Part shown: piece by piece, positions 1,611-8,189 of the stretch
Layout: every line of letters begins with the position of its first letter
Position numbering within the stretch: the first letter of the stretch is position 1
NCBI GenBank assembly: GCA_947492585.1
Contig: CANLND010000020.1
Coordinates: 1 to 64,000 of the forward strand
DNA: 64,000 bases
From: an uncultured Paracoccaceae bacterium
Lineage (GTDB): Bacteria > Pseudomonadota > Alphaproteobacteria > Rhodobacterales > Rhodobacteraceae
Direction: 5' to 3'
The notes under the pieces: model-generated
Database searches by the model: none
Told to the model about the DNA's origin: nothing
Seen by the model: only the letters and a program-made list of their open reading frames with translations
Position numbers and translations under genes: made by a program

Positions 1611-1790
1611 ATGGCAACAAATAAGCCAACGACCCCCAGCAGCGAAGACATCAAACTCATCAAGTTTCTCGCAGAGGTCTACGGCACCCAAATCGTTCGT
1701 CGTGACAATAAGTTCTACGACATCGAATACCTTGGCACCCCCCTGTCGCGTGTTGACGTCGAGATTCGGCGTCGTAGCCACGCTGCTTAA
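1611..1790 (+). CDS. Small orphan ORF, probably a truncated element gene (59 aa)
   Basis: Too short for the ORF track. It starts MATNKPTTPSSEDIKLIKFL and ends RRRSHAA. GGAGAG lies 8 nt before the ATG, a good ribosome site. The segment RRDNKFYDIEYLGTPLSR resembles N-terminal stretches of element or phage replication/primase-type proteins, but I cannot assign a family with confidence. Its stop codon lies where the opposite-strand integrase loses family-like sequence, so the two genes meet tail to tail at about 1785-1792. This suggests that both were cut by the same deletion and that the ORF is the 5' stub of a longer gene. Expression is plausible; function is unknown. Confidence 0.5.
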   Translation: MATNKPTTPSSEDIKLIKFLAEVYGTQIVRRDNKFYDIEYLGTPLSRVDVEIRRRSHAA

Positions 1791-3234
1791 TCCATTCGAC
1801 CAGGCCCAATTCCAAAAGAACTTGTGGGATCGGGACTACGCGTCGACTGGCGACGGTTTTCCCATCTTGCTCAACGCTCCAAGCAAAGCGCAAGCAGAAC
1901 ACCCCATCGTCATGCCAAATCAGGTCGCCAGCTTTGAGCTGCAGAACTTCGGTGAGGCGCGTTCCCATTGTCATGATGATCAATGGCACCCAGTAGATGG
2001 CATCCCGGATAAGCTTCTTTCCCGGGCGGGTGCGCCGGTTTAGACTGTAGCATCCCCGATAGATCGGCGACGTCAGCAGTTTCTTGAGCCGTATGCCACT
2101 CCAACGGGAACGCGTTTTGGGCCGTGTCATACGAAGAAAGAGCGGTTCATGCTTTCTTAGCTCCTGACTAAATGACTTCATTTCTTGCGCCAAAGCCGAA
2201 TAGGTGAGCACTTTGGTCTTTCCTGGGTATCCCAGGCTGGCGGCTGCTGAACGAAGGATGTCATGAACTCGGTCAAGATGGCGCTCAAGGTTCTTGTGCG
2301 TCATGCGAATTGACAGCAAATCTGGAAGCTTCGCCAGTTGTTGTCGCTCGCTGGCCCCAGGGATTCTGCGGACCATTTCATAGCATTCAGCATCGTGCGC
2401 ATCCGCTGCTGCAATTAATTCGCGCTTTGACACGGAAACCTCTTCTTTTTGATAGCGGTTCTTACCGTGCCTTTGGCCATGGTCGCGGGGTAGGCGATGT
2501 AGAAAACGGCAAAACTCGGTGATACGTCTTGCAGCTTGTTCAAGAGAGACATTCCCGAAACACTCCAGCAGTAGAGTGCCGGTAGCTTCAAGTTTGCGGC
2601 GCATTTCTGCGCTCTTTCCCTGCTTCGCGGTCTCAATGGCTGTCGCCATTGATATGAACGGCGGAATCTGGCCGTCTTTCGGAGCAATCTGAAAGCGTTC
2701 AAAAAGCCCTGCTGCGACTGCCAGCGGATCTTCAAAGTCTTCCAGCACGAAGAGCTCTGCTTTCCAGGTTGCCTTCAGGGTCGTCGCAAATTGCCTTGCG
2801 GCCCCGGCATCCATCAGATTGACAGGCGGCTCTCCAATTTTTTCTGCGACTTCCTTTGCGATCTGAGTAGGCCGCGAAAGGTCTCTCCCTCGTAATTCAA
2901 CCTGAAGGAGATTCAGCAGGGCACTTAGGTTCTGAATGCGCCCTTCAGCATCAAAGGCTGGATCAGATAAATTGCTGATTAGCTTTTCGAAATGGCTGCG
3001 AACTATCTCCCGCGAAATGGCGTGGATAGCTTCAGGTGTCGCTGGGGCTGTTGGCTCGATGAAAATCTTTTTGTCTCCTTCCTGGGGCACTGGAGGGCAA
3101 GGCTCCGGTGCGGGTGTGGGAAGGACGTGAGTCTTGATACGTTCGGACAGAAACGGGTTTGAGTGCGGGTTTGAATTATTTTTTGTTCGACTTACAGGGC
3201 TGTGGTCTGTGTTGGCTGCACGACTATCGCGCAA
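1660..3234 (-). pseudogene. Tyrosine recombinase (integrase), C-terminally truncated
   Basis: The 524-codon frame has a long helical N-terminal region, a SAM-like core-binding part, and the start of the catalytic domain. TMGTRLTEVLQLKAGDL carries the first catalytic Arg, followed by the beta strands RFAWSVEQDGKTV and RRVVPIPQVLLELGLVEWI. After VEWI the protein becomes unrelated Arg/His-rich sequence (RGYDAESRRQHATGG), which is the antisense of the 59-aa ORF. The second Arg, the His residues and the Tyr nucleophile are therefore missing, and it cannot be an active integrase. It lies immediately past the 3' end of tRNA-Gln, the classical attachment position. The start is uncertain: the track start is a TTG without a clear ribosome site. 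Confidence 0.75.
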
Positions 3235-3304: not shown

Positions 3305-3379
3305 TGGCTGGGATGGTAGGATTCGAACCTACGATACACTGTACCAAAAACAGTTGCCTTACCACTTGGCTACATCCCA
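3305..3379 (-). tRNA. tRNA-Gln (anticodon UUG)
   Basis: The reverse complement folds as a cloverleaf. The acceptor arm TGGGATG pairs with CATCCCA, the discriminator is G, and the CCA is encoded. The D-arm GCCAAGTGGTAAGGC is present, the anticodon stem is CTGT/ACAG with loop TTTTGGT giving UUG, and the T-arm is TAGGTTCGAATCCTA. The gene is intact even though the truncated integrase lies about 70 nt past its 3' end, as expected when the integrating element restores the tRNA 3' end. No second copy of the 3' end was found within the window to the left. Confidence 0.95.
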
Positions 3380-3513: not shown

Positions 3514-4536
3514 TTAGGCGCTGGCGCGTACAACCAGCTCTCCGTTGAATTCGTACCGTTCCTGCGCATCTGGGGTGTCTTGCAGAATTGCCACAAGTCG
3601 CTGTGCCATCTCTGGTATTGGCTGGCGGTAGCTGGTCAGCTGGTATTGGGCCCATTGGGCTTGTGGGATATCGTCAAAGCCCGTGACCGCGATATCTTCG
3701 GGCGCGCGCAGGCCCGCCGCGTGACGTATGGCATCAATGGTTCCCATAGCCAGTGCGTCGTTTTCGCAGACGATGACATCGGGGCGTCGGTCAAGCGGGC
3801 AAGTGTGCAATAAACGCGCGATCCGATCAAATGCCAATGTGGCATCATAAGCCGCAACGTCGAGTGTTGGCGGTGTTTGCCCAGTGGCGTTTTTCCAATG
3901 GGTGAGGAATGTTTCTCGACGTCGTAAATGTGCAGACCCGGTCTGCGGCCCGGCGAGAAACAAAGGGGATTGATACCCTTGTGCCAGAACGTGATCGGCA
4001 ATCGTTGCCATGGCAACGGTATCATCAACTGAGATCGACAAAGTACTAGGGTGTTCTGAACTGCGCGCAAACACGATCAGTCGTTTCACGCGACCAGCGC
4101 CTTGCGCGGTTTCAAGCGTCGCATCGTTGAACTGAATTCCGATCAGAACGGCGGCGTCAACACGGCGCTGGCTGGCGGTTAGCAGGGCATCGTTTGTGGC
4201 GGTCCCGTCCAAGGTGTTCAGCAGCAAGCTGTCCCAGCCATGGGCGCGCAGAGTCCGGGTTAGCTGATCAATCAGAACCAGTTTGTGTGGGTTTTTGAAA
4301 TCATCGATCAACAACGCCACCAAATTCGAGCGATCAGATCCTAAACTGGCGGCTTGCAGGTCTGGCAAATAGCCAATCCGTTTGGCAGCTTCCAACACGT
4401 TCGCGCGGGTTTGGGCGGAGACCGGGGCATCTGATTTGAACGCGCGCGTCACGGTCCAGCGCGACACACCAGCCGCAGCGGCGACGTCATCTGCGGTGAC
4501 TTTGGTGAAGGGTTTTTGATCGGTCATTCTGTTCAT
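3514..4536 (-). CDS. LacI-family transcriptional regulator
   Basis: 340 aa, the usual LacI length. The N-terminal helix-turn-helix is at residues about 13-60 (VTADDVAAAAGVSRWTVTRAF, then hinge-helix region RIGYLPDLQAASL). It is followed by a periplasmic-binding-protein-like effector domain with the typical NDALAMGTIDAIR and DIAVTGFDDIP segments. A second Met at residue 4 (MTDQ) is an alternative start. It is divergent from the iolG-like gene, and the 122 bp between them contains two palindromic LacI-type half-sites, so it probably represses both that gene and itself. The effector is not visible; an inositol or related sugar intermediate is an inference from the neighbours. Confidence 0.9.
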   Translation of the reverse strand: MNRMTDQKPFTKVTADDVAAAAGVSRWTVTRAFKSDAPVSAQTRANVLEAAKRIGYLPDLQAASLGSDRSNLVALLIDDFKNPHKLVLIDQLTRTLRAHGWDSLLLNTLDGTATNDALLTASQRRVDAAVLIGIQFNDATLETAQGAGRVKRLIVFARSSEHPSTLSISVDDTVAMATIADHVLAQGYQSPLFLAGPQTGSAHLRRRETFLTHWKNATGQTPPTLDVAAYDATLAFDRIARLLHTCPLDRRPDVIVCENDALAMGTIDAIRHAAGLRAPEDIAVTGFDDIPQAQWAQYQLTSYRQPIPEMAQRLVAILQDTPDAQERYEFNGELVVRASA

Positions 4537-4564: not shown

Positions 4565-4613
4565 CCTTTCTGCACGCATGTGCAAAATTATCTTGCACAT
4601 GCGTGCAGAAAGG
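4565..4613. promoter_or_regulatory. Double palindromic operator between lacI-type gene and iolG-like gene
   Basis: Two 21-nt arms form a perfect inverted repeat around a 7-nt AT-rich spacer (AAATTATC region). Each arm itself contains a near-palindromic 14-mer, TGCACGCATGTGCA on the left and TGCACATGCGTGCA on the right. LacI proteins bind such CG-centred palindromes, and a tandem pair would suit a tetramer or two dimers. It lies about 27 nt upstream of the lacI-type ATG and about 45 nt upstream of the iolG-like ATG, so it can control both. The ORF-track start of the downstream gene falls inside it, which argues against that start. Confidence 0.8.
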
Positions 4614-4657: not shown

Positions 4658-5650
4658 ATGCTGAAGGTTGGATTATTGGGGGCAGGCCGCATTGGGCAGG
4701 TTCATGCGGTAAATATTACAGGACATCACGAAAGCACGCTGGTGGCGGTGGCGGATGTCCATGGGCCCGCTGCAGACAGGCTGGCGCGGCAATACGGGGC
4801 CGATGTGCGCAGCACCGAAGAGATTATCGCGGATCCAGACATTGATGCAGTTTTGATAGCAACGTCAACCGACACCCATTCCGACCTGATAGAAGCAGCC
4901 GCGGCTGCCGGGAAGGCGATCCTGTGTGAAAAGCCTGTTGATTTGTCGTTGGAACGAGCGCGGTTGTGCCTTGCACGGACAAAAGGCGCAACGGCGCCCA
5001 TTATGGTTGCCTTTAACCGCCGCTTTGATCCCAATTTTGCGAAGGTGCAACAGGCCGCGGCAGCAGGTGAGATTGGAAAGACTGAGCTGCTGTCCATCAC
5101 GTCATATGATCCCGCACCGCCTCCGATTGAGTATGTCAAAGTGTCTGGGGGATTGTTTCGGGACATGATGATCCATGATCTGGATATGGCCACGTTTTTG
5201 ATGGGCGACGCTCCGGTCCAGATTTCGGCGGTGGGACGCGCGCTGGTGGATCCTGCGATTGGTGCGGCCGGGGATGTGGACACTGCTGTGGCAACGCTGA
5301 TGTATGCAGATGGCCGCTTGGCTGTGATCAAGAACAGTCGCCGCGCGGCATACGGGTATGATCAACGGGTCGAGTTGTTGGGTTCGGAGGGCTTGTTGGC
5401 ATTGGAAAACATGCGGGAATCGACCGTGTCCAAGGCCACGCGTGACGGGATCATCAGCGCCAAACCAGAACATTTCTTTCTTGAACGTTACGCCCGGGCG
5501 TATGTGATAGAATGGCAGGCTTTTGTCGACAGCGCGCTACATGGAGCTCCGGTTCCGGCCACATTGCAGGATGGGATCACCGCGCTTGCATTGGCAGATG
5601 CGGCGCATCGGTCATCTGAAACAGGTCAGCCCGTTGCCGTTGAACTGTAA
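4658..5650 (+). CDS. iolG: Gfo/Idh/MocA oxidoreductase, inositol 2-dehydrogenase-like
   Basis: 330 aa from the ATG at 4658, preceded by AGGGGAGG. The longer track ORF would begin inside the operator. The N-terminal Rossmann fold has VGLLGAGRIGQVHA, followed by the family catalytic Lys in ILCEKPVDLS and the active-site Asp/His in FRDMMIHDLDM. This matches NAD-dependent myo-inositol 2-dehydrogenase, which oxidises myo-inositol to 2-keto-inositol, although related enzymes act on scyllo-inositol or other sugars. It is followed at once by an iolB pseudogene, which supports an inositol-pathway origin. With no other iol genes in view, the enzyme may now serve a different or partial pathway. Confidence 0.75.
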   Translation: MLKVGLLGAGRIGQVHAVNITGHHESTLVAVADVHGPAADRLARQYGADVRSTEEIIADPDIDAVLIATSTDTHSDLIEAAAAAGKAILCEKPVDLSLERARLCLARTKGATAPIMVAFNRRFDPNFAKVQQAAAAGEIGKTELLSITSYDPAPPPIEYVKVSGGLFRDMMIHDLDMATFLMGDAPVQISAVGRALVDPAIGAAGDVDTAVATLMYADGRLAVIKNSRRAAYGYDQRVELLGSEGLLALENMRESTVSKATRDGIISAKPEHFFLERYARAYVIEWQAFVDSALHGAPVPATLQDGITALALADAAHRSSETGQPVAVEL

Positions 5651-5664
5651 GCGGGGCGCATCAC

Positions 5665-6043
5665 ATGAGTGATTTGTTGTGCAAGCCGGTTGGAGCAACG
5701 GGCAAAGTGTATGGCAGTACATCCGCCTCTGGAGGGAGAGGGTATTTGGGCGTTGCGGTGCATCACGATGATAAAGATGACTATCCGCGCATCACGTACT
5801 CGGAAGAGACGTAATTATCATTGGTTGGCCCCAAAAAACGCTCACGGCACTCAGCGGGTATATATCGCTGATGGGACATTGAACGAGACCACGGCGGTCG
5901 CTGATGGTGACGTTTTTTGGTGCCACAGGGGCACCTTCCCTGTGGTAGGGCCGCATGGGTCGGAGATGTATGGCCTCAATGGTAGGGCTGGGCGGTCGCG
6001 ACAGTGGCGATTTGTGCCCGCGCCGAAGGGGGTTGAATTGTGG
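5665..6043 (+). pseudogene. iolB: iolB (5-deoxy-glucuronate isomerase) pseudogene with internal deletion and frameshift
   Basis: Frame 1 from ATG 5665 reads MSDLLCKPVGATGKVYG, the IolB N-terminus. It then jumps to HHDDKDDYPRITYSEET, which belongs about 130 residues further on in the family, and hits a stop at 5812. The next frame continues without a break as YHWLAPKNAHGTQRVYIADG, ETTAVADGDVFW, GSEMYGLNGRAG and RQWRF, the IolB C-terminal half. So the gene has lost its middle and shifted frame by one base at about 5811-5813. The extreme C-terminus is also unrecognisable. IolB converts 5-deoxy-glucuronate in inositol breakdown; this copy cannot. It begins 14 nt after iolG and was evidently in its operon. 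Confidence 0.85.
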
Positions 6044-6081
6044 CACGTGACGGCTGACGGTTGCGGGCCTGTAATTGCAAA

Positions 6082-6122: not shown

Positions 6123-7991
6123 TTAAAACTCTTGCCACATGTCTTCCCTGTTGACTGCACGGGCGGGCGCGGGGGCGGGAGCCTCCCAATCCCCATGGGC
6201 AGATGGTGCCGCGGCCGGTGATGCAGTGGGCATTGGGGCCACATTGGCTGCGCGCGTGCCGCCCGTATCAAAATGCGCTACCAGTTCCGCCAGTTTACCT
6301 GCATCAGTATTCATTAGATGGCTGGCGGCGGTCGCTTCTTCGACCATGGCGGCGTTCTGTTGGGTTACCTGATCCAATTGGGTCATGCCGGTGTTGATTT
6401 CCCCCAATCCGGTCGACTGTTCGGCCGCACCTTCGGCAATGCCCGAGATCAAAGTGGAAATATGGCTGACTTGATCCACGATGGAGTTCAGCGCTTCGCC
6501 GGCTTTGCCCACCAGATCTACGCCGCGTTCCACCTGCTGTGATGAATTGGAAATCAGTGTTTTGATCTCCATCGCGGCATCTGATGAGCGCTGGGCCAAG
6601 GCGCGCACTTCTGACGCCACAACTGCAAAACCACGACCGGCTTCACCGGCGCGGGCGGCCTCTACGCCAGCATTCAGCGCCAGCAGGTTGGTCTGGAATG
6701 CGATGTCATCAATAACACTGATGATTTGGGCAATGTGGGTAGAGCTTTGTTCGATTTCAGTCATCGCGGCAACGGCATTTTGCACCACTTCGCCGCTGGT
6801 TTCGGCCTCGTTTCGTGCTTCTTGCATAGTGCTTTCTACGCTGCGCGCACCCTCAGCTGCGGACCGTACACTGGCGGTCAGTTCGTCCAACGCTGCTGCG
6901 GTTTCTTCCAGTGTTGCGGCTTGGCTTTCGGTGCGGTTTGACAGGTCATCTGACGACTGGCTGATTTCCATCGCTCCGTTGCGAATTGAGGACGCGGTGT
7001 CCACCATCTGGTTTACCGTTGATGTCAGATTGTCGAGTGTGGTGTTGAAATCCTGACGCAACTGTTCGTAGCCTTCGGGGAACTCTTCGGTGATATGCGC
7101 TGTCAGTTTGCCCTTGGACAGTTCAGCAAGGGACGTGCTGAGCACCTCGACAACGCGATTGCGCTCGTCCTCTTTGGCGTGTTGGGCTTCTTCCATTTCG
7201 TTTTGACGCATCAGCGCTTGACGGAACTGGTCCAGCGTGCGGGCCATGTCGCCGATTTCACTGCGCGACTCTGCGCCAGGAATTTTGTCTCGGTGATTGC
7301 CACTGGCCATGCTCTGCATACGCGCATTGAGCTGATCCAACGGGCCTGTGATCGACCGCATCAAGACAATGCTGGCGATGGTCAACAGAACCAGCCCGAT
7401 GCCTAGAGAAATCAATGAAGTTGTGCGCAGGGTTGCCAATTGTTCATAGATGTCATTGACATAAGATCCAGTTCCAACAACCCAACCCCATTTTGGAAAG
7501 TTGATCACATAGCCTAGCTTGGCTTCCAGTTCTTCTGAATCGGGTTTGTTAAAGTAGTAAGTGACATCGCCAGCCCCATTGGCTATGGCGACCTTGACCA
7601 TCTCAGCAACAATTGGAATCCCGGTTTTGTCGGTGAATGCTATTTGATTGGTGCCAACCCACTTCGGACGATGCGGATGTGCCACATAAACGTGATCATG
7701 GGTAAAGGCATAGAAATAACCTGATTTTCCATAGCGCAGTTTTTCAAGCTCGATGCGGCCCTGCGTCTGCGCCTCTTCCAGCGTCATATCACCCGACTGC
7801 ACCTTTGCATCAAGATGGTTGAGCGTGCTGATCGCGGTTTCCGTTAAGGCGTGCAGTTCCATTTTACGCATATCAAACGCGTTTTCGACGGAACGGTTGA
7901 GCAGGGTGAATGTCAGGATACTCGCCAAGCCGAGGGCGAGCACGACGATGGCGTAGATGCGAGCCGGTAGACGGTGAAAAAATGCAGGCAT
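6123..7991 (-). CDS. Methyl-accepting chemotaxis protein with single-Cache sensor
   Basis: 622 aa from the MPAFFHRL start, which has AAGGAAG 8 nt upstream; the track start (8039) adds 16 residues. TM1 is IYAIVVLALGLASILTFTLL. The periplasmic domain carries sCache features (GYFYAFTHDHVYVAHP, GWVVGTGSYVNDIY). TM2 is LISLGIGLVLLTIASIVLM, then HAMP, then a long signalling hairpin with the conserved tip [23 protein letters not shown]. It ends MWQEF, an xWxxF tether of the type that docks CheR/CheB. It probably senses a small carboxylate or similar ligand. Its signalling half is closely similar to that of the next gene, so the two are paralogs. A 9-bp-stem hairpin lies downstream. Confidence 0.93.
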   Translation of the reverse strand: MPAFFHRLPARIYAIVVLALGLASILTFTLLNRSVENAFDMRKMELHALTETAISTLNHLDAKVQSGDMTLEEAQTQGRIELEKLRYGKSGYFYAFTHDHVYVAHPHRPKWVGTNQIAFTDKTGIPIVAEMVKVAIANGAGDVTYYFNKPDSEELEAKLGYVINFPKWGWVVGTGSYVNDIYEQLATLRTTSLISLGIGLVLLTIASIVLMRSITGPLDQLNARMQSMASGNHRDKIPGAESRSEIGDMARTLDQFRQALMRQNEMEEAQHAKEDERNRVVEVLSTSLAELSKGKLTAHITEEFPEGYEQLRQDFNTTLDNLTSTVNQMVDTASSIRNGAMEISQSSDDLSNRTESQAATLEETAAALDELTASVRSAAEGARSVESTMQEARNEAETSGEVVQNAVAAMTEIEQSSTHIAQIISVIDDIAFQTNLLALNAGVEAARAGEAGRGFAVVASEVRALAQRSSDAAMEIKTLISNSSQQVERGVDLVGKAGEALNSIVDQVSHISTLISGIAEGAAEQSTGLGEINTGMTQLDQVTQQNAAMVEEATAASHLMNTDAGKLAELVAHFDTGGTRAANVAPMPTASPAAAPSAHGDWEAPAPAPARAVNREDMWQEF

Positions 7992-8189
7992 TCCGGGATC
8001 TTCCTTGTGGCGTTTTTTGTTGCCCCAAAGCTTATCCATGCATTCCTAACAGCAAGTTTCACAGATGACTGGTCTTGAACCTAATCGACGCTTTTCAGTG
8101 AAAAAGATAGTTCAATTGTATCAAAAGCCTGGGCGACGTCCGGGACCCACCTGTGCTGTGTGGTAGGGCAGGTGTTTGATACGTCGTGG

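Follow-up and report, generated by a model that had tools for sequence, protein, structure and literature searches.

A decayed iolB beside an intact iolG, and a full-length iol cluster without iolG, in a Rhodobacteraceae genome

The lacI-iolG locus and its damaged iolB

Analysis of the window, the whole stretch of 64,000 nucleotides studied here, from a marine bacterium, revealed a short inositol (iol) locus consisting of a LacI-family regulator gene, a divergently oriented iolG with twin operators in its promoter, and the remains of a type-1 iolB (Table 1). The mechanically called iolG reading frame begins at 4580, and the start supported by homologues lies at about 4658. The encoded protein retained all 99 residues that are invariant in 42 relatives, which, together with its score against the inositol 2-dehydrogenase equivalog, bears out the original prediction that the gene adjoining iolB is intact; by that score, its predicted activity is the oxidation of myo-inositol. 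Close to the flanking tRNA gene, a minus-strand reading frame (1660-3234) showed a weak match to a PHROG integrase (19.7 bits) and no Pfam match, and is possibly a degraded integrated element.

Table 1. Features at the iolG locus (positions in the window)
Feature	Position	Strand	Evidence or remark
tRNA-Gln(ttg)	3305..3379	-	likewise flanks the locus in E. ulvae
LacI-family regulator, divergent from iolG	3514..4536	-	orthologue adjoins type-1 iolG in many alphaproteobacteria
Twin LacI-type operators	4570..4608		TGCACGCATGTGCA (4571-4584) and TGCACATGCGTGCA (4594-4607), 23 bp apart
iolG, inositol 2-dehydrogenase, intact	4658..5650	+	TIGR04380, 424 bits, cut-off 355
iolB (type-1, TIGR04378) pseudogene	5665..6057 (end approximate)	+	profile matches, frame-aware alignment, invariant-residue and relative-rate comparisons
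iolB N-terminal 34 codons, ATG kept	5665..5766	+	frame-aware alignment to E. ulvae IolB
Junction of in-frame deletion of about 138 codons (E. ulvae residues 35-172), approximate	5764..5769	+	ambiguous by a codon or two
+1 frameshift in EET-YY-H motif of iolB	5812..5815	+	leads to TAA at 5812-5814 in the starting frame
-1 frameshift in iolB remnant	5915..5916	+	frame-aware alignment
+1 frameshift in iolB remnant	5947..5950	+	frame-aware alignment
Methyl-accepting chemotaxis protein (MCP)	6123..8039	-	other flank in common with E. ulvae, 65% identical

Both ends of IolB are recognisable in the remnant, as had been predicted. The C-terminal part matched the TIGR04378 iolB model (47 bits, E 2.3e-12, model positions 172-242) and PF04962 KduI/IolB (45.9 bits against a cut-off of 23.9); the N-terminal part gave no family match by itself in searches with profiles of these types, and was aligned in a frame-aware manner, from the ATG onwards, with IolB of Epibacterium ulvae. 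The reference for the damage was this intact 268-residue E. ulvae protein, encoded at the same site; an automatic whole-stretch DNA alignment with E. ulvae misplaced the N-terminal part across a long gap, and the frame-aware alignment was used instead. The gap of some 130 codons that was originally proposed is indeed present and, measured against E. ulvae IolB, is slightly larger, with 138 codons missing in frame. The remnant is also frameshifted as proposed, although a single frameshift understated the damage, since there are at least three single-base shifts (+1, -1 and +1), which together with the deletion leave no intact reading frame. A fourth shift, of -1, probably lies near 6030, given that the C-terminal DG-stop that would be expected occurs at 6049-6057 in the starting frame. 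A set of 24 intact type-1 IolB proteins has 121 invariant residues; the remnant retains 40 of these, has lost 60 through deletion and carries substitutions at 19, and a further two fall on frameshifted codons; the damaged parts include the His-rich stretch at about residues 170-173.

Comparison of lineage-specific amino-acid changes, using the congeneric genome G003 as outgroup, revealed 32 changes in the iolB remnant against four in E. ulvae over 118 alignable codons (chi-square 21.8), pointing to relaxed constraint on the remnant relative to intact relatives. The same comparison showed no excess of change in the window for iolG (13 against 20 in E. ulvae) or lacI (24 against 30). Relative amino-acid change was used in place of dS, from which the decay cannot be dated because synonymous sites are saturated between the window and E. 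ulvae. That the loss was recent, as first supposed, is doubtful: a deletion, several frameshifts and 32 changes against four do not suggest a very recent event. Full residue conservation and the lack of excess change in iolG contradict the further suggestion that this gene might itself be on the way out.

A second iol cluster and the distribution of iolG

A search for other iol genes in the genome, the check suggested with the original prediction, identified a second cluster on contig C8, in the order lacI, gfoB, iolE, gfoA and then, divergently, iolD, iolC, iolB and an iolJ-like aldolase gene, all full-length. The genes iolB, iolC, iolD and iolE of the predicted myo-inositol pathway are thus all present there. 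While iolD (794 bits, cut-off 715) and iolC (316 bits, cut-off 300) score above their thresholds, iolB (146 bits, cut-off 205) and iolE (183 bits, cut-off 290) fall below the curated NCBIfam cut-offs, as do IolB and IolE in all members of the type-2 cluster in the genus, and the myo-inositol activity of these two C8 genes is putative. The two gfo genes of the cluster are other members of the Gfo/Idh/MocA dehydrogenase family, and the two score 127 and 74 bits against the iolG model. It is colinear with the type-2 clusters of about 20 named relatives; iolG directly follows iolJ in the same type-2 cluster in about 20 named relatives, and at C8 a MYG1-family gene follows iolJ, in the position where most relatives have iolG. 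Pelagimonas varians (L104), for example, has the same gene order as C8, but clusters of its kind carry at their end an iolG of their own, which shares about 55% identity with the window iolG, whereas C8 lacks one.

In this genome no gene other than the window iolG exceeds the iolG family cut-off, although the assembly is a draft (95.56% complete, 83 contigs) and may lack a further iolG. Four genomes of the genus have a type-2 cluster devoid of iolG (this genome, E. ulvae, G014 and G017), and each of them carries a lacI-iolG pair elsewhere; this comparison includes sister pairs, so that as few as one or two events may underlie it, and the G017 contig ends inside the type-2 cluster, after iolC. 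In a sample drawn evenly from the family and tallied by hand from tables, 55 of the 57 genomes with iolB have iolG, against only 3 of the 54 that lack iolB. Every one of the 13 sampled genomes in which the only iolB is of type 2 has exactly one iolG above the cut-off, nine of these lying in the type-2 cluster and four elsewhere, although for two of the four (G076 and G124) the assembly is too fragmented to judge the distance.

Operators and regulators of the two loci

The twin operators in the iolG promoter are two 14-bp near-palindromes conserved in relatives, in agreement with the original view that the iolG operator is intact. All 12 named relatives in which the orthologous LacI gene adjoins iolG have a twin pair of the form TGC[A/T]C-N4-G[A/T]GCA ahead of iolG, and such a pair is likewise found before iolG of G017; across these genomes the spacing is 23 bp, once 22 bp, and the sequence varies. 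The half-site drifts between TGCAC and TGCTC at steady spacing in L064, L065, L066, L069, L070, L074, L079, L088, L090 and L095.

The palindrome of the C8 cluster, TGCAACCGGTTGCA, is unlike the window operator and occurs at only two sites genome-wide, both at the C8 cluster (L003 13377-13390 and 18398-18411). No match to the window operator beyond chance was found at the C8 cluster, and matches elsewhere in the genome were no commoner than those of the control. We rejected regulation of both loci through one operator sequence, as the operators differ. Because the C8 palindrome differs from the window operator, each of the two loci probably has a different LacI protein as its regulator, and the window LacI may respond to an inositol-related ligand. 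The TGCAACCGGTTGCA sequence also lies upstream of iolG in Ruegeria loci lacking the window-type LacI (L067, L076 and L085), which suggests a regulator swap between iol operon types.

Comparison with published regulatory data placed the window operator apart from that of the myo-inositol module of Caulobacter crescentus (PMC2597717), in which idhA occurs with iolC, iolD, iolE, iolB and iolA and control is exerted through operators that are palindromic; the C. crescentus operator, GGAA-N6-TTCC, differs from the window sequence. In some relatives of C. crescentus, idhA stands apart from the other myo-inositol genes (PMC2597717).

Retention of iolG and decay of its operon neighbours

The closest counterpart of the locus is that of E. 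ulvae U95 (G016, L037, L060; NZ_FMWG01000008.1), where tRNA-Gln, lacI, iolG, iolB and the MCP gene are arranged as in the window, with a twin operator and an iolG 83% identical; a type-2 cluster lacking iolG is likewise found in that genome. In contrast to the window, its iolB is intact with 268 codons, which supplies the intact gene that the original prediction had proposed looking for in close relatives. Type-1 operons of other alphaproteobacteria, such as that of Phaeobacter sp. J2-8 (L064), share the orthologous LacI, the twin operator and iolG but continue with iolC, iolD, iolE and iolB, which look intact. Within the genus, the locus ranges from lacI with intact iolG, iolE and iolB in G003, through lacI, iolG and intact iolB in E. 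ulvae and lacI, iolG and dead iolB in the window, to lacI and iolG only in G014 and G017, beside whose solo iolG a search for iolB remnants found none. This series looks like stepwise erosion of an operon around a retained iolG, as far as a comparison of living genomes, rather than of their history, can indicate.

We consider it likely that the window locus is the remnant of a type-1 iol operon in which iolB is redundant and iolG has been retained, probably for the first step of the pathway encoded on C8. The window iolB would be redundant because the C8 type-2 cluster has its own iolB, such that the deletion and frameshifts could be tolerated, and iolG would be retained because C8 is without the terminal iolG typical of such clusters. 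Window IolG would most likely supply the C8 enzymes with 2-keto-myo-inositol made from myo-inositol, although the two other dehydrogenase-family genes on C8 might perform this step instead. The organism is predicted to grow on myo-inositol. With somewhat less assurance, we lean towards a mosaic origin of the pathway, in which iolG disappeared from the type-2 cluster and the first step passed to the iolG of a decayed type-1 operon under different regulation, a role that would preserve this one gene while its operon neighbours decay. The decay of iolB is then the ordinary decay of a redundant gene copy inside a mosaic pathway, not the loss of an ability.

An unlikely alternative, in line with the original suggestion that iolG was kept for another use, is that the enzyme has a role unconnected with C8, for example the oxidation of some other polyol or inositol isomer. 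Gfo/Idh/MocA dehydrogenases differ in substrate, C8 contains two further superfamily members of its own and has a different operator, and three sampled genomes have iolG and no iolB. Nevertheless, the equivalog score lies above its cut-off (424 against 355 bits), iolG is nearly always accompanied by iolB across the family, and the expected iolG is missing from the C8 cluster, so that retention for the same pathway, with its intact cluster lacking an iolG of its own, is the better reading.

The initial proposal that inositol catabolism is being lost, iolB first and iolG next, is very improbable. The window iolB is certainly dead, but the second iol cluster, with all its genes full-length, argues against such a loss, as do the 99 of 99 invariant residues of iolG, its lack of excess change and its conserved twin operator. 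Sequencing or assembly error as the source of the iolB frameshifts and deletion is scarcely credible: errors often take the form of single-base indels and the genome is a draft of 83 contigs, but neither the replacement of 19 invariant residues nor the 32 lineage-specific changes scattered through the remnant can be assembly artefacts, and the flanking iolG is undamaged.

A dead pathway gene does not equal a dead pathway, and annotation of this single locus would wrongly call the organism an inositol non-user. We found no paper on the window locus by title or abstract; the genus series lends itself to testing, by simple genetics, whether one operon depends on another.

Incomplete iol genes were also observed elsewhere in the family. 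Genome G051 carries two short C-terminal iolB fragments (contigs C34 and C15, open frames of 73 and 68 amino acids), that on C15 at the contig edge, alongside two full iolB copies. In a Rhodobacteraceae MAG (L127, 9327-14935), a type-2 cluster lies beside a type-1 cluster, has no iolD2 match and has its iolE2 split into two weak matches, and is perhaps another decaying copy.
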